Source: Nitrogeniibacter mangrovi (GTDB lineage Bacteria > Pseudomonadota > Gammaproteobacteria > Burkholderiales > Rhodocyclaceae). From it: a DNA stretch of 64,000 bases. Numbering within the stretch: position 1 is the first letter of the stretch; each line of letters opens with the position of its first letter. A program made the translations under genes and the position numbers. This document shows positions 1-62,872 of this stretch, one piece after another. The DNA lies in assembly GCF_010983895.1 (NCBI RefSeq), contig NZ_CP048836.1, positions 682,001 to 746,000 of the forward strand, written 5' to 3'. The notes beneath the pieces were generated by a model. The model did no database searches. It was not told the DNA's origin and worked only from the letters and a program-made list of their open reading frames with translations.

Positions 1-2
1 AC

Positions 3-800
3 GCTGAATACAATCTTCAGAAGGCCTTGACCGCGCGCACCGATTTCGCTCCGGCGCATGCGCTGGCCATCGACATCGCCCTGCACCGGGGACAGGTCGA
101 CACGGCGCGCAAGGCGCTGGAGGCTTTGCGCAAGTCGGCACCGAATGATCCCGGTCTGCTGCGCTATCAGGGCACCATCGCGCTGGCCTCCGGCGACGGG
201 CCGGCTGCGCTCAAGCACTTTGCGCAGCAGTACCGTGCGCATCCGGACGCTCGTGCGGCCCTGAACCTGTCGGCTGTGCAGGAGCGCCTCGGCGATCTGG
301 CCGCCGCCGAGGCGACCTTGCGCGATGAACAGGCACGCCACGCCACGCCGGTCATCTACGATGCCTTGGGCCAGATCCTGGAGCGGCAGGCGAAATGGGC
401 CGAAGCGCGGGACGCGTACCGGCGTTTGCTGCGCGACGCGCCCGATAGTCCCGGTATCCTCAACCGGCTCGCGCGGGTGCAGTTCGAGCTCAAGGACGCC
501 GGCGCCATGGCCACCGCCGACAAGGCCCGTGCGCTGGCGCCGAACGATCCGCGCGTGATCGATACCGTGGGCTGGCTGCGACTCCAGTCGGGGGATGTGG
601 ACGGGGCACTCGCCCTGCTGCGTGACGCACGCTTGCGGGCGCCGGGCCTGCCCGAGATCCGTTACCACCTTGCCGAGGCGCTCGCTCGCAGCGGACGGAC
701 CGGCGAAGCCGAGGCCGAGCTGGCCGCAGCGCTCGCCGATGGCCGGGGTTTTCGGGGTGCCGACGAGGCGCGTGCGTTGCAGCAGCGGCTGCAAAAGTGA
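3..800 (+). CDS. C-terminal part of a TPR-repeat protein, PrsT-like (5' end outside window)
   Basis: The frame is open from the left edge, so this is only the last ~265 residues of a longer protein. Several degenerate 34-residue TPR units are visible, rich in the Ala/Leu/Gly pattern of helical hairpins (LGDLAAAEATL, ALGQILERQAKWAEARDAY, IRYHLAEALARSGRTGEAEAEL). The tail resembles the PEP-CTERM-system TPR protein PrsT, usually ~900 residues and encoded next to PrsK/PrsR. It is followed 156 bp later by a sigma-54 promoter and a PEP-CTERM gene, which supports that reading. It would act as a protein-protein scaffold in envelope or EPS assembly. The TPR call is firm; the PrsT identity is inferred from context and general similarity. 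Confidence 0.65.
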   Translation, partial: AEYNLQKALTARTDFAPAHALAIDIALHRGQVDTARKALEALRKSAPNDPGLLRYQGTIALASGDGPAALKHFAQQYRAHPDARAALNLSAVQERLGDLAAAEATLRDEQARHATPVIYDALGQILERQAKWAEARDAYRRLLRDAPDSPGILNRLARVQFELKDAGAMATADKARALAPNDPRVIDTVGWLRLQSGDVDGALALLRDARLRAPGLPEIRYHLAEALARSGRTGEAEAELAAALADGRGFRGADEARALQQRLQK

Positions 801-900
801 ATGCCGCACGGGAGAATAACGTGTCGGAAAATCTGACGCTTTCCGATCGGTTTCTATGCGGCTGTTCGGCAAGTGCATGAATTAAAACAAAATCTACGTC

Positions 901-916
901 TGGCACTAACTTTGCT
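901..916 (+). promoter_or_regulatory. Sigma-54 (RpoN) -24/-12 promoter
   Basis: TGGCACTAACTTTGCT matches the consensus TGGCAC-N5-TTGCW, with the invariant GG and GC exactly ten bases apart. It lies 41 bp upstream of the ATG of the PEP-CTERM gene at 957, a good distance for a sigma-54 start site. Sigma-54 promoters are known for PEP-CTERM genes controlled by PrsK/PrsR in floc-forming Betaproteobacteria. No enhancer site for the activator was recognised. Confidence 0.85.
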
Positions 917-956
917 TAATATTTGCCAAACGAATCCGTAACCGGAGATTTCAAAA

Positions 957-1715
957 ATGAAAAAGCTTCTCACGACCGCCCTGGTGTCGATGGCGGCGGT
1001 GATCAGCCTGCCGGCGATGGCGACCGGGGGCTCTTACTACACTGCCTACAACAAGAGCACCCACTGTGGTGGCGGTTCCACTGAGCCGTCCTGCCCCACC
1101 TACAACCTCACCGATGCGGGGTCGTCCGGTAATGCCCTGGTGTCGCTGGATGCCTACTACAATACCAGCGGGTCAAGCACCCTGAACGATGCCTACTCCA
1201 TGACCTACTACAGCGGCAGTGGTTATGGCGTGAAGGCCACCAGCACCGACGGCACGAGCCCCCAGCACGCGGTGGACAACTCGGGTGACTACGAGTGGCT
1301 GATGCTCAGCTTCGATCAGGCCGTGAGCCTGGACAAGATCACCCTGGGCTGGATCTCCGGCGACGCCGACATCACGGTGATGGCCGCCGGCGCACCGTCC
1401 AATGACCTGAGCGGCTGGAACTTCATCGAGAACCTGTATTACGGCAACGGCGGCAGCCAGTTCTCCACCGACAGCTACGGGCGTACCGTGGCCTCGCTGA
1501 CAAACGAAGTGTGCGCCTCCTACTGGCTGATCGGCGCCATCAACCCGGCGTATGCCTCTTCGATGTACGTCGGCAACGACTTCTTCAAGGTGTATTCGGT
1601 TCAGGCCTGCACCAACTGCGGGCAGCCGGGCACCGGTGTTGCCGAGCCGGGTTCGCTCGCGCTGGCCGGCATCGGTCTTCTCGGAGTCTTTGGATTGCGT
1701 CGCCGTCGTTCCTGA
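957..1715 (+). CDS. PEP-CTERM surface protein, resembling exosortase-dependent protein XDP1
   Basis: 252-residue secreted protein. An N-terminal signal peptide (MKKLLTTALVSMAAVISLPAMA) is cleaved after AMA. The body is Ser/Gly/Tyr-rich with a segment of the type SPQHAVDNSGDYEWLMLSF, resembling the XDP1 group of exosortase substrates. The C-terminus is a sorting signal: AEPGS, a hydrophobic helix (LALAGIGLLGVFGL) and RRRRS. The usual PEP reads AEP here. The start is the ATG after a GGAGA Shine-Dalgarno. It is transcribed from the sigma-54 site at 901 and ends at a strong terminator. Its role is probably cell-surface or floc matrix attachment, after processing by an exosortase such as the XrtB encoded at 61253. 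Confidence 0.85.
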   Translation: MKKLLTTALVSMAAVISLPAMATGGSYYTAYNKSTHCGGGSTEPSCPTYNLTDAGSSGNALVSLDAYYNTSGSSTLNDAYSMTYYSGSGYGVKATSTDGTSPQHAVDNSGDYEWLMLSFDQAVSLDKITLGWISGDADITVMAAGAPSNDLSGWNFIENLYYGNGGSQFSTDSYGRTVASLTNEVCASYWLIGAINPAYASSMYVGNDFFKVYSVQACTNCGQPGTGVAEPGSLALAGIGLLGVFGLRRRRS

Positions 1716-1738: not shown

Positions 1739-1768
1739 GCGGCGCCACACGGCGCCGCTTTTCTTTTG
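1739..1768 (+). terminator. Intrinsic terminator after PEP-CTERM gene
   Basis: Perfect 8-bp GC stem (GCGGCGCC / GGCGCCGC) with an ACAC loop, followed by TTTTCTTTT. It is U-rich only in the rightward direction, so it serves the PEP-CTERM gene rather than the convergent ABC exporter. Confidence 0.85.
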
Positions 1769-46372: not shown

Positions 46373-47260
46373 TCAGGCGCGACGGCGGCGTGCCCAGCCG
46401 AGCAGGCCGAGGCCGGCGAGCATCATGGCCCAGGTCTGCGCTTCGGGGACGGCGGTGACCTGCCAGCCGACGTCACTCAGTGCCGCCCAGTCGAGATCGG
46501 TGAACCGCTTACGCTGGCCGTTGGCGATGCTCGGATCGAGCGAAGCATCCTGCAGGATACCGTTCACGAAGGACTGGGTGCCGTTTGCCCAGTGACCTCC
46601 ATCTGCGCTTAGGGGGACCGATGATTCGGCGTTTCCGGTCGCTTCGGAATATGCGGCCACCGAGTCGGTGCCGGCAAATCCTGCGCCCGTGACCTGAGCG
46701 CTCCAGGAATCGGCGACCCCGATGCCCAGCACATGACCCAGTTCATGCACGGCGACAGAGTAAAAGTCGAATCCGCTGAAGGATTCGTCCGTGGCGGTAT
46801 CGGTGTCGACATACCAGTTGGTCAGGGTGTCGAAGGAGATGAAACCGCCCCAGGGGGCGTAGTCACTGGTACCGACGCCGCTCTGGCCGCGATCCACACT
46901 GCTGAATGCACTGTAGCCGCCGGAGCCGCCGATGCCGAGCGTATTGCCGCCAAGATCGGTGCCGCCGACATAAATGTGTAGTGTGTCGGCACTGATCTGT
47001 TGGTTGGAAAGCGTGATCTTCGGCCAAATCCCTGAGCTCAGATCGGCCCCGGGGTCGTTGAACGATATGGTGCTGTAGCTGGCGGCGTCGAGCGCATCGG
47101 TGATGCGGCTGCCAAACTCGGTGGCGACGGCGTTGAGCACCGAGCGATAGTTGCCCGTGAGGAAGTTGTTGCTGTCGTAGCTGTAGTCGAATTCGATGGT
47201 GATGGCGTGTGCGGCGCTGGTGGCGGCGATGAGCGCGGCGGCGAGAACCGTCTTTTTCAT
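46373..47260 (-). CDS. PEP-CTERM-sorted zinc metalloprotease
   Basis: 295 residues. Signal peptide (cleaved after SAAHA), then a domain with the zinc motif HELGHVLGIGVADSW (H172, E173, H176). The metzincin third-ligand position (residue 182) is Val, not His. The C-terminus is an exosortase signal, VPEAQT, helix (WAMMLAGLGLLGWA) and RRRRA, with PEA in place of PEP. It is likely displayed on or released from the surface and may process matrix proteins. Located alone between ubiA and ubiD on the opposite strand. Resembles HExxH PEP-CTERM proteases of the NF038122 type. Confidence 0.82.
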   Translation of the reverse strand: MKKTVLAAALIAATSAAHAITIEFDYSYDSNNFLTGNYRSVLNAVATEFGSRITDALDAASYSTISFNDPGADLSSGIWPKITLSNQQISADTLHIYVGGTDLGGNTLGIGGSGGYSAFSSVDRGQSGVGTSDYAPWGGFISFDTLTNWYVDTDTATDESFSGFDFYSVAVHELGHVLGIGVADSWSAQVTGAGFAGTDSVAAYSEATGNAESSVPLSADGGHWANGTQSFVNGILQDASLDPSIANGQRKRFTDLDWAALSDVGWQVTAVPEAQTWAMMLAGLGLLGWARRRRA

Positions 47261-55462: not shown

Positions 55463-56263
55463 ATGTCTTCACTGACCAGGATGCTGTTTGCGTTGCTGGC
55501 CGCGAGCGCGGCATCGAGTGCCTTGGCCGACACCAACTGGGTCGGTAGCGCCGATTATTCTCAGGCGCCGAGCGGGGCGTCCGTCGGCGAGGTCGTCGCG
55601 CCCTTCGATACCTACGACTTCGCCCGCGGGGCCGTGCTCCTCGAGCCCGAGCCCAATGGTGGCGCCGATCCGGTGGTCTACAACGGCTGGTTCCAGTCCT
55701 ACGTCACCAATCATCAGTTCGGCGGCACGCTCGCCACCGCGGTAGGACTGAACCGCGATTACGAGCTGACCATCGCCGGTTCGTTTCGTGAAGAGCTCAG
55801 CTCGCTGCAGCCCGGGTTGTTTACGCTCACCGGCGGCAGCGTCACGCTCTACTTCGACAACGCGGTCGATCGCAGCTTCGCCGCCGATACCGGTTTCGAC
55901 GATGGCGATGCGCTGATCACCGGGACCATCGTCGGTGGCAGTGGCGCCCTGTTCGACATTGGCGGCCGCGGTGTCGGTTTCACCGACCTGAGCATTCGCA
56001 TCGACACCGTCGATGCCAACGTGTTTGCGCCCGCCACCATCAAGAGCGGCACGAGCATCTTCACCTTGCGTCTGAACGATGCCACCGACGAGACCTTCCT
56101 GTCGGGTGTCGACTCCGTGCTGGGGCATGCCTACGATGCGGGTGACGTTCGTCTGGCTGCGGATGGCTATCTGGCGCTTCAGGTGCCGGAGCCCGGGCAG
56201 TACGCGATGTTGCTGGCGGGGCTGGGCGCGATCGGTATGATTCGCCGTCGCCGCCTCGGCTGA
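55463..56263 (+). CDS. PEP-CTERM protein of the EPS locus
   Basis: 266 residues. Signal peptide cleaved near SALA, a beta-rich body with repeated Asp/Gly/Thr patterns and no known enzyme motif, and a canonical exosortase signal: VPEPGQ, helix (YAMLLAGLGAIGMI), RRRRLG. A GGGAGA site lies before the ATG. Located between epsL and epsD, it is the most likely local substrate of XrtB and may be a matrix or flocculation protein. A relation to floc-associated PepA is possible but not shown. It ends at a terminator. Confidence 0.85.
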   Translation: MSSLTRMLFALLAASAASSALADTNWVGSADYSQAPSGASVGEVVAPFDTYDFARGAVLLEPEPNGGADPVVYNGWFQSYVTNHQFGGTLATAVGLNRDYELTIAGSFREELSSLQPGLFTLTGGSVTLYFDNAVDRSFAADTGFDDGDALITGTIVGGSGALFDIGGRGVGFTDLSIRIDTVDANVFAPATIKSGTSIFTLRLNDATDETFLSGVDSVLGHAYDAGDVRLAADGYLALQVPEPGQYAMLLAGLGAIGMIRRRRLG

Positions 56264-60289: not shown

Positions 60290-61245
60290 ACACTGTCAAT
60301 CCGACCGCCGACGCCATGGCGGTTCCTCATTCCCCAGCAAGCAAACCCATGATCAAGCCAGCGAATTCCGCCGTGAGCGCCATCGACCAATTCGCCGAGC
60401 ACAAGACGGGGCGCGACCGCTCCATCGGCGCCATCCTCATCGACGCGGGCAAGATCAAGGCCGCCGATGCCGAGCACGTCCTGCGCCTGCAGCAGGACGA
60501 GGGCCTGCGCTTTGGCGACGCCGCCAAGAAGCTCGGCCTGATCAGTGACGATGATATCGCCCAGGCCCTGTCGCGCCAGTTCGACTACCCCTACCTCACC
60601 TGGGGCGAAAGCCGGGTCGCGGCCGAAGTGGTGGCCGCCTACAACCCGTTCTCGGCCCCGGTCGAAGCCCTGCGCGCACTGCGCAGCCAGCTGATGCTGC
60701 GCTGGTTCGACGCCGAAGCCGAGCACAAGACGCTCGCCATCACCAGCCCCGGTCGCGGGGAAGGGCGCTCCTGGCTCACCGCCAACCTGGGCGTGGTGTT
60801 CTCCCAGCTCGGCGAGCGCACCCTCATCATCGACGCCGACCTGCGTCACCCGCGCCAGCATCTGCTGTTCGGCGCCGAAAACCGCAGCGGCCTCTCTGCC
60901 GTGCTGTCCGGGCGGGGGGCCACCGACGCCGTGCAACGGGTGCCGGCGCTGCTCGACCTGTCGTTGCTGCCCGCCGGTGCGGTGCCCCCCAATCCACAGG
61001 AGCTGCTGGCTCGGCCGGCTTTCGCACAACTGCTCCAGCACCTCAGTGCCGATTTCGACGTGATCCTCATCGACACGCCCGCCGGGGCACAGTTCGCCGA
61101 TGGCCAGACCGTCGCCGTGCGTGCCAGTGGCGCCCTGGTGGTCGCCCAGAAGAATGCCAGCCGCCTTGGCCTGCTGCGCAGCTACGCCGACATGCTGCGG
61201 CAGGCGACGGCCTCCGTGGTCGGAACAGTCCTGGTCGAACGCTGA
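60286..61245 (+). CDS. epsG: Chain-length tyrosine-kinase-like ATPase EpsG
   Basis: 319 residues. An N-terminal segment of the type II-secretion/MshE-N type (RSIGAILIDAGKIKAADAEHVL...ISDDDIAQALSRQF) precedes a BY-kinase domain. Walker A reads SPGRGEGRSWLTANLG, with Arg where Lys is usual; Walker A' is TLIIDADLRHP and Walker B ILIDTPAG. There is no C-terminal Tyr cluster. It should pair with EpsF to regulate polymerisation. Coupled by ATGA to epsF. Confidence 0.88.
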   Translation: MNTVNPTADAMAVPHSPASKPMIKPANSAVSAIDQFAEHKTGRDRSIGAILIDAGKIKAADAEHVLRLQQDEGLRFGDAAKKLGLISDDDIAQALSRQFDYPYLTWGESRVAAEVVAAYNPFSAPVEALRALRSQLMLRWFDAEAEHKTLAITSPGRGEGRSWLTANLGVVFSQLGERTLIIDADLRHPRQHLLFGAENRSGLSAVLSGRGATDAVQRVPALLDLSLLPAGAVPPNPQELLARPAFAQLLQHLSADFDVILIDTPAGAQFADGQTVAVRASGALVVAQKNASRLGLLRSYADMLRQATASVVGTVLVER

Positions 61246-61252
61246 GAATGAT

Positions 61253-62152
61253 GTGCAGACCGTGAGCGCTCAATCGTCATCCACCGCCCACAGTTTTGGG
61301 ATTCAAGCCGATGGGTGGTGGCCCTGGATCATCGTCGCACTGGGCGCATCGGTCATGTACCTGCCCAGCTTCTACGATCTGTTTGCCGGGATCTGGAGCA
61401 CGGACCAACAAGGCCATGGCCCCATCGTGTTGGCGATCTCGATCTGGCTCCTCTATCGCAAGTGGCCGCAGATGATGGCGGCCAGCGAGGGGGGTGCCCC
61501 CTCGCGGGCCGGCTGGCCGGTCCTCGTGTTCGGCCTGCTGCTGTTCGTTGTCGGGCGCTCCCAGGACATCCTGTTGTTCGAGATCGGTTCGGTGATCTGG
61601 GTGCTGGTCGCAGTGCTCTTGCTGATGTGCGGCGGGCGGGCCGTAAAGGCCGTGTGGTTCCCCCTGTTCTTCATGCTCTTCATGATTCCGCTTCCAGGCG
61701 CCTTCGTTGACGCCATGACGATGCCCATGAAAATGGCGGTGTCATATGTCGCGGAGCATGTCTTATACGCGGCGGGCTATCCCATCGCGCGTACCGGTGT
61801 CGTATTGCAGATCGGCCCCTACCAGCTGCTCGTCGCGGATGCATGCGCCGGCTTGCACACCCTGTTCACTCTCGAGGCGCTCGGGTTGTTGTATCTCAAT
61901 CTCGTCCGCCATGAGTCGGTGGCGAGGAATCTGACGCTGGCGCTGTTGATCGTCCCGATTTCCTTTACCGCGAACGTGATTCGTGTCATGGCCCTGACGT
62001 TGATCACCTATCACCTGGGGGATGAGGCCGGGCAGGGGTTTCTCCATGGATTCGCGGGGATGGTGCTGTTTCTGACGGCCTTGTTGCTGATTATCGGGGT
62101 CGACTCCCTGATTCGCCTCGTCGTCGCACGCTCACGAAATACGGCAGATTGA
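61253..62152 (+). CDS. xrtB: Exosortase B (XrtB)
   Basis: 299 residues with about eight membrane helices. The exosortase triad is visible: Cys198 in VADACAGLHT, Arg244 in NVIRVMAL and His265 in FLHGFAGM. It cleaves and transfers PEP-CTERM proteins at the inner membrane. Start is a GTG at 61253 (weak GAGA before it); a GTG at 61262 is an alternative. Followed 4 bp later by epsI, the standard XrtB order. Confidence 0.92.
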   Translation: MQTVSAQSSSTAHSFGIQADGWWPWIIVALGASVMYLPSFYDLFAGIWSTDQQGHGPIVLAISIWLLYRKWPQMMAASEGGAPSRAGWPVLVFGLLLFVVGRSQDILLFEIGSVIWVLVAVLLLMCGGRAVKAVWFPLFFMLFMIPLPGAFVDAMTMPMKMAVSYVAEHVLYAAGYPIARTGVVLQIGPYQLLVADACAGLHTLFTLEALGLLYLNLVRHESVARNLTLALLIVPISFTANVIRVMALTLITYHLGDEAGQGFLHGFAGMVLFLTALLLIIGVDSLIRLVVARSRNTAD

Positions 62153-62155
62153 CTC

Positions 62156-62872
62156 ATGTTCCAGCAATCCGGGCGTCCCAACTCCAGGATGAAGGCCTTT
62201 TTCATTGCGTTGCTGATGGTCGTGTCGGCCGCGTTCGGCGCGCAATTGAAACCGAGTGTCTTTCTTGCCGACCTGCGACCGGGCACCTCATTGGGTGAAC
62301 TCGTCCCCAAGCAGTTCGGCGATTGGAAGGTCGAACCGCAGGCGCCACAACTGGTAAACCCCCAGTCGCGGGAGCTCATTGACAAACTCTATGTCGAGAC
62401 CGTGTCCCGGACATACACGAACAGTCATGGCCAACGCGTCATGCTGGCCATCGCCTACGGACGTGACCAGCGCGATTCGCTTGCCCTACACCGACCGGAT
62501 GTCTGCTATCCGGCTCAGGGATTCGTCATCAGGAACAAGCACGACGATGTGTTGAAAAGCCGCTTCGGCGACATCCCCGTGCGTCGTCTGTTCACCGGTC
62601 TGGACGGTCGACGCTTCGAACCGGTGACCTACTGGACCACGGTGGGTGACCATGTCGTGAGGCACGGGTATGAAAAGAAGCTGGTCGAAATGGAGTACGC
62701 CGCCAAGGGGTTGATTCCCGACGGATTGCTGTTTCGCGTATCGACCATCAGCCAGGATCCCGATCAGGCCTACGCGCTCAGCGATCGATTTACACGTGAT
62801 CTGCTGCATGCGGTGGATCCCAAGGTCCTGCCGCGTCTGGCGGGCTTTGAACCGGCAGCCAAATCGCGCTAG
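62156..62872 (+). CDS. epsI: Exosortase-associated protein EpsI
   Basis: 238 residues. N-terminal helix (FFIALLMVVSAAFGAQL), then LVPKQFGDWKVE, RVMLAIAYGRDQRDSLALHRPDVCYPAQGF with the conserved Cys-Tyr-x-x-Gln-Gly, and VTYWTTVGDHVV. EpsI is always beside exosortase, anchored in the membrane; its role is unclear but it is required for EPS in known systems. It begins 4 bases after xrtB. Confidence 0.88.
   Translation: MFQQSGRPNSRMKAFFIALLMVVSAAFGAQLKPSVFLADLRPGTSLGELVPKQFGDWKVEPQAPQLVNPQSRELIDKLYVETVSRTYTNSHGQRVMLAIAYGRDQRDSLALHRPDVCYPAQGFVIRNKHDDVLKSRFGDIPVRRLFTGLDGRRFEPVTYWTTVGDHVVRHGYEKKLVEMEYAAKGLIPDGLLFRVSTISQDPDQAYALSDRFTRDLLHAVDPKVLPRLAGFEPAAKSR

Follow-up and report, generated by a model that had tools for sequence, protein, structure and literature searches.

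A putative PrsR-activated sigma-54 promoter of a PEP-CTERM gene and the association of such promoters with XrtA-type protein tails

In the 64,000-nucleotide stretch of DNA analysed here (the window; genome positions 682001-746000), the region at 822-916 is very probably a PrsR-activated sigma-54 promoter of XDP1, a gene for an exosortase-dependent surface protein. Control of this gene by sigma-54 and PrsR, as put forward in a preliminary description of the window, is supported at the level of sequence by the promoter element, an activator box whose spacing agrees with the published one, the occurrence of prsK, prsR and prsT in the genome, and the retention of box and promoter in relatives. The promoter is a further instance of a module type known since 2006 and would confirm the prediction made then in one more genome. 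The more useful part of the analysis is a sorting rule: one residue of the C-terminal tail near-completely separates the sampled genomes with only XrtA from those with only XrtB, and the module largely follows it. If true, this rule would make it possible to tell from sequence which exosortase a substrate belongs to where a bacterium has both, and the reason for keeping two exosortases would become testable.

Background

At sigma-54 promoters, transcription depends on ATP hydrolysis by an activator bound upstream. For PEP-CTERM genes, the available text of Haft et al. 2006 (PMC1569441) describes a 17-nt motif 1, followed after a mean spacer of 62.8 nt (32-92) by a sigma-54 motif 2, and reports these motifs before 99 of 167 proteobacterial genes of this kind. 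PrsR, which has the domain make-up of a sigma-54-type activator, was proposed there as the activator, since the motif and prsR show the same species profile. The same text describes the expansion of PEP-CTERM tails within lineages and, as far as it is available, draws no tie between the module and exosortase type.

Control of a Zoogloea PEP-CTERM gene by PrsK-PrsR is cited second-hand in the accessible part of PMC9012009, and an RpoN-dependent PEP-CTERM gene with a TGGCAC -24 element, pepA, lies beside prsT in Aquincola tertiaricarbonis RN12 according to the available text of PMC9850573. The control of PEP-CTERM genes in floc formers by PrsK/PrsR and RpoN, to which the preliminary description refers, has been published. 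A Janthinobacterium paper (PMC9860564) reports exosortase B, PrsK and PrsR in one genome and, in the portion available, does not link them. NCBIfam models tails separately as PEP_CTERM (TIGR02595) and PEPxxWA-CTERM (NF035944), and names PrsT as a protein of the 'XrtA/PEP-CTERM system'; a distinction between two shapes of tail and a tie of PrsT to XrtA thus already exist in curation, and the curators may know part of the tail rule described below. A literature search returned no paper whose available text ties tail shape to XrtA versus XrtB or to PrsR.

The promoter region of XDP1

The coordinates of the features discussed are collected in Table 1. The consensus TGGCAC-N5-TTGCW has a single exact match in the window, at 901-916, among 25 matches with two or fewer mismatches. 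This number of loose matches is at chance level (31 expected from shuffles), so that the argument depends on the exact match and on its context. The preliminary description had recognized TGGCAC-N5-TTGCT with its 10-bp GG-GC spacing as an RpoN consensus element located 41 bp before a PEP-CTERM gene with a PrsT-like neighbour. The consensus, the spacing, the upstream placement and both genes were borne out, with a correct distance of 40 nt from the site to the ATG at 957. What had been overlooked is the other half of the control region, the activator box, along with the identity of XDP1 and the correlation with the exosortases.

Table 1. Features in and around the proposed promoter and the XrtB locus (positions in the window)
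Feature	Position	Strand	Remarks
prsT paralogue, 3' part (PEP-CTERM system TPR protein)	1-800	+	TIGR02917; whole match at genome 680047-682734
PrsR-type activator box (motif 1), TGTCGGAAAATCTGACG	822-838	+	17 nt; 62 nt upstream of the promoter
Sigma-54 -24/-12 promoter, TGGCACTAACTTTGCT	901-916	+	GG 902-903, GC 914-915, 10 nt between
Expected transcription start, about 927	926-928	+	inferred from spacing to the -12 element at 915
Shine-Dalgarno-like GGAG	944-947	+	precedes ATG 957
XDP1, exosortase-dependent surface protein, 252 aa; tail AEPGSLALAGIGLLGVFGLRRRRS	957-1715	+	NF041927, PF07589
Intrinsic terminator-like hairpin 3' of XDP1	1739-1758	+	consensus match only; shuffles give 1.1, the sequence 1
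PEP-CTERM protein, aromatic tail PEAQTWAMMLAGLG, without module	46373-47260	-	Pfam match 46379-46453
PEP-CTERM protein, aromatic XrtB-type tail PEPGQYAMLLAGLG, without module	55463-56263	+	Pfam match 56180-56254
Exosortase B (XrtB)	61100-62152	+	TIGR03113, 429 bits, cut-off 275; true start may lie 3' of 61100, profile match begins near 61325
EpsI, B-type, probable XrtB partner	62156-62872	+	NF045609, 268 bits, cut-off 220

A genome-wide search found 22 exact matches to TGGCAC-N5-TTGCW in the 4.24-Mb genome and 0 for a reversed control; a looser TGGCRY form gave 53 matches against 14 for its control. The sigma-54 weight matrix used for scoring is modelled on a published compilation, and the exact-pattern counts are independent of it. 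An activator box lies within 110 nt upstream of two of the 22 exact sites, both of which precede PEP-CTERM genes.

In length and spacing, the box upstream of XDP1 fits motif 1 of Haft et al. 2006 (compared by text), and its distance from the promoter falls inside the 32-92 nt range of that module. The two systems further agree in the -24/-12 element, the intergenic location, the single PEP-CTERM gene and the presence of prsK-prsR-prsT in the genome. They differ, as far as the published text is available, in that the box at 822-838 ends in CTGACG whereas the consensus of motif 1 ends in TTTACA, and in that a second prsT precedes the gene studied here. Among the remaining six boxes of this genome, two end in CTTACA, two in TTTACA and the others in TTGACA or CTTACG.

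The box-plus-promoter module occurs once on the two strands of the window. In 100 dinucleotide shuffles it occurs 0.03 times on average, and no shuffle held a module whose promoter scored at least 17 (the XDP1 promoter scores 17.5). It is this module that raises the site at 901-916 clearly above chance. The box pattern alone means little, given 94 matches genome-wide against 68 for the reversed control. This pattern was read by eye from upstream regions of this genome and afterwards applied to other genomes; among 105 PEP-CTERM upstream regions it is found in 27 in the forward orientation and in 4 on the other strand, and the reversed motif is found in 0.

XDP1, its neighbours and its relatives

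XDP1 matches the NCBIfam model NF041927 at 185.4 bits (cut-off 125) over positions 8-242 of 242, which is nearly the whole model, and no difference from the family was found; the protein model is mute on regulation. The C-terminal PEP-CTERM motif passes the PF07589 cut-off (24.8 bits against 20.7) and falls just below that of TIGR02595 (15.7 against 16), and the signal peptide was judged by eye. Assignment as floc_PepA (NF033554) was rejected at 15.6 bits against a cut-off of 80, and this weak match is one of two differences from RN12 pepA that emerge from the available text of PMC9850573, the other being gene order, with pepA upstream of prsT there and XDP1 downstream of prsT here. A single-sequence structure prediction of XDP1 (mean pLDDT 32) was worthless and went unused.

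The prsT gene at the window edge scores 561.9 bits against TIGR02917 (cut-off 312.2), the part within the window corresponding to profile positions 655-898. Its stop codon at 798-800 is followed by a 156-nt intergenic stretch before the XDP1 start codon. A prsK-prsR-prsT cluster is located at genome 3141698-3147833, with prsT directly behind prsK and prsR and with scores of 751 bits for prsR, 836 for prsK and 792 for prsT, all over their cut-offs. The genome accordingly has two prsT genes, one in this cluster (3141698-3144370) and one beside XDP1 (680047-682734), the latter in an arrangement kept in relatives. Approximately 30 proteins match the sigma-54-activator domain at E 1e-74 or better, PrsR among them, and these matches imply the presence of rpoN.

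Relatives of XDP1 were obtained from a search of 60 related genomes and this genome, a scan of genome contigs with XDP1 having given none, and XDP1-like matches occurred in 21 of these 61 genomes, this one included. Upstream DNA was covered for the stronger matches, in 14 of the 20 other genomes (9 of the same genus and 5 more distant); G050, G017, G051, G021, G033, G027 and a second match in G016 fall outside this sample. Box and promoter are present upstream of XDP1 in all 14 relatives examined, with the best sigma-54 site 51-64 nt after the box and scores of 11.6-18.0, those of three among the most distant relatives being as low as 11.6-13.1. The encoded proteins have 31-48% identity to the XDP1 of the window. 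A prsT relative lies directly upstream of XDP1 in 13 of the 14 (tblastn), and the contig of the fourteenth begins 188 nt before the XDP1 match, too short to show prsT.

Proposed mechanism and alternative readings of the promoter

In the mechanism that we propose, phosphorylated PrsR would bind the box at 822-838, and looping of the DNA would allow it to drive the RpoN-polymerase bound at 901-916. Transcription would start near 927 and lead to XDP1, a predicted secreted protein that carries an exosortase tag at its C-terminus and would be processed by XrtA as judged from its tail class and the statistics given below.

A chance match to the -24/-12 consensus would account for the number of loosely matching sites in the window, which does not exceed that of shuffled sequence, but this reading is hardly credible and was rejected, given that box and site recur together in 14 of 14 relatives examined and that only 0.03 modules are expected per window. 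A second alternative, which we regard as quite unlikely, accepts the promoter and assigns it to an enhancer-binding protein other than PrsR. The genome offers some 30 sigma-54-activator-like proteins, and the published pairing of PrsR with the box rests, in the text available, on Haft's phylogenetic profile and not on footprints. However, the box accompanies only 2 of the 22 exact sigma-54 sites and both of these precede PEP-CTERM genes, the motif and prsR share their species profile according to the same text, and the Zoogloea case cited second-hand in the accessible part of PMC9012009 is one of PrsK-PrsR control of a PEP-CTERM gene. Less probable still is that XDP1 is expressed mainly by read-through from prsT, with the sigma-54 site a minor or decayed promoter. 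It is true that the end of prsT lies on the same strand, 156 nt before XDP1, that the pair is conserved and that a search between the two genes for a terminator-like hairpin found none, but box and promoter have been kept in all 14 examined relatives despite a protein identity of only 31-48%, and a search of 600-1800 revealed no sigma-70-type site. We therefore retain PrsR-activated transcription from 901-916 as the preferred reading.

Module and tail class in genomes with two exosortases

This genome encodes both XrtA (332 bits, genome 2889455-2890207) and XrtB (429 bits, within the window). The tail of XDP1, AEPGSLALAG, is non-aromatic; the two further PEP-CTERM genes in the window have XrtB-type tails, PEAQTWAMM and PEPGQYAML. 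The report in the preliminary description that these two genes have no sigma-54 site is upheld, their best upstream scores being 1.6 and 3.6. Its suggestion that control appears split, originally a guess from three genes, holds genome-wide and largely along the two exosortases: 25 genes are over the PEP-CTERM cut-off, and 7 of them have box and promoter. Spacers are 62-84 nt in six of these seven modules, one of which (L008) has a weak promoter score of 8.8; the seventh, L014, has an aromatic tail, and its promoter, a strong one, stands 107 nt from the box, beyond the maximum of 92 nt given by Haft et al. The tails of module bearers are mostly PEPx[ST]L, and most of the others are PEPxxY or PEPxxW.

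Tail class was defined by the third residue after PEP, with A, S, C and H as well as L, I and V taken as non-aromatic. This class was chosen after viewing the 25 tails of this genome, a bias from which the tests on other genomes are free. Across five two-exosortase genomes of the genus (this one, G001, G002, G006 and G008), the module, with spacers limited to 40-95 nt, precedes 19 of the 35 genes with non-aromatic tails and 4 of the 70 with aromatic tails (Fisher 4.4e-8); an upper limit of 110 nt raises these counts to 21 and 6. The association is found without this genome (13 of 24 versus 4 of 56, p 9.6e-6) and in this genome alone (6 of 11 versus 0 of 14, p 0.0026). The remaining 16 of the 35 non-aromatic genes are exceptions without a module.

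These counts cover 105 of 146 genes, drawn from the best-scoring matches listed, which favours strong tail matches: all 25 of this genome, 20 of 28 in G001, 16 of 28 in G002, 19 of 25 in G006 and 25 of 40 in G008, with G003, G005 and four of the G002 genes listed left out. Some genes at contig ends with little upstream DNA (for example L140, with 2 nt, and L258) were counted as having no module, and the second exosortase of G001, G002, G006 and G008 was taken as XrtA on the basis of its low XrtB score. Five of the six aromatic-tail genes with a module match PEPxxWA-CTERM (NF035944), at 26.4-34.7 bits and all under the cut-off of 35, and two of four non-aromatic module genes are over the cut-off of TIGR02595. 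Two FxDxF-type PEP-CTERM genes within approximately 6 kb of xrtB, L142 (G006) and L145 (G001), have a box match and, 40 nt further on, a promoter-like site with a score of 11.1; they are a possible exception to the split.

Genomes with a single exosortase type

When the XrtB model was applied to the 61 genomes, 21 had XrtB over the cut-off, 13 had only low-scoring XrtA-type matches and 27 had no match. Non-aromatic tails make up 34 of 35 sampled genes in XrtA-only genomes versus 3 of 55 in XrtB-only genomes (Fisher 3.6e-20), so that in this sample the exosortase can be predicted from the third residue after PEP. The module, with spacers of 40-110 nt, precedes 19 of the same 35 and 1 of the 55 genes (Fisher 4.4e-9), the single XrtB-only case belonging to G041. 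Genes within one genome, and orthologues or duplicates between rows such as L265 and L266, are not independent in these tests; compared by genome on the majority tail, the 6 XrtA-only and 7 XrtB-only genomes, which represent 13 genera, separate completely (exact p 5.8e-4). The PEP-CTERM genes L265 and L266 (G027:C1:3401556-3403184 and 3409204-3410832) lie about 7.6 kb apart and have identical letters in the parts of tail, box and promoter compared, which suggests a recent duplication.

The XrtA-only sample comprises 35 of 65 genes, every one among the matches listed, from 6 of 13 genomes, and for 4 of these 6 the XrtA model confirmed the class; the XrtA-type genomes outside the sample are G007, G017, G018, G021, G025, G033 and G050 (with two such matches). 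The XrtB-only sample comprises 55 of 145 genes from all 7 genomes, G010, G019, G031 and G032 being complete and G040 (9 of 17), G041 (10 of 67) and G060 (10 of 35) partial.

Two possible programmes of surface protein expression

The counts suggest that the PrsR/sigma-54 module is mostly found at genes of the XrtA type and rarely at those of the XrtB type, and XDP1 is probably a member of the XrtA arm in this two-exosortase genome. PEP-CTERM genes with XrtB-type tails mostly have no module and must be controlled otherwise. With modest confidence, we favour the view that there are two separately switched programmes, in which the PEP+3 residue would assign a protein to XrtA or XrtB, PrsK-PrsR and sigma-54 would switch the XrtA set, and the XrtB set would be switched in another way.

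The association could instead reflect shared descent or the distribution of prsR among genomes, with no functional pairing of module and tail, a reading that we consider possible though rather unlikely and that bears on the split and not on the promoter itself. Genes of an XrtA era would have brought tail and promoter together, the available text of Haft et al. 2006 describes lineage-wise expansion of PEP-CTERM tails, and the genes of one genome are not independent. In addition, the comparison of XrtA-only with XrtB-only genomes was built on exosortase content, with prsR content outside it, and the difference in module frequency may simply mirror the presence of prsR. Against this, the association holds between genera (13 genomes, 13 genera) and is also seen inside genomes with both enzymes. 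The tail rule may not hold outside this group, as the published RpoN-dependent PepA falls outside the tail classification.

Further loci

The window segment 52527-64000 is an XrtB exopolysaccharide locus that includes a glucose phosphotransferase, an EpsE export protein, XrtB, the B-type EpsI and the PEP-CTERM gene at 55463-56263, which is of the floc_PepA type (NF033554, 137 bits, cut-off 80).

Beyond the seven boxes at PEP-CTERM genes, 10 of the 94 genomic box matches were inspected, picked because they have an AT-rich core or lie near a sigma-54 site; a promoter scoring 11.7-15.9 lies behind three of them and none behind the other seven, and as the remaining 77 matches are outside this inspection, the target set is a lower bound. 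Modules are thus found at no fewer than three genes that are not of the PEP-CTERM type, L105, L106 and L107, at genome 3835313 (+), 3840535 (+) and 1185639 (-), with spacers of 64, 64 and 72 nt. Their products are, in the same order, a protein of approximately 300 aa, a protein of 850 aa whose N-terminus resembles filamentous haemagglutinin by eye, and a protein of 272 aa with a start that by eye is twin-arginine-like.
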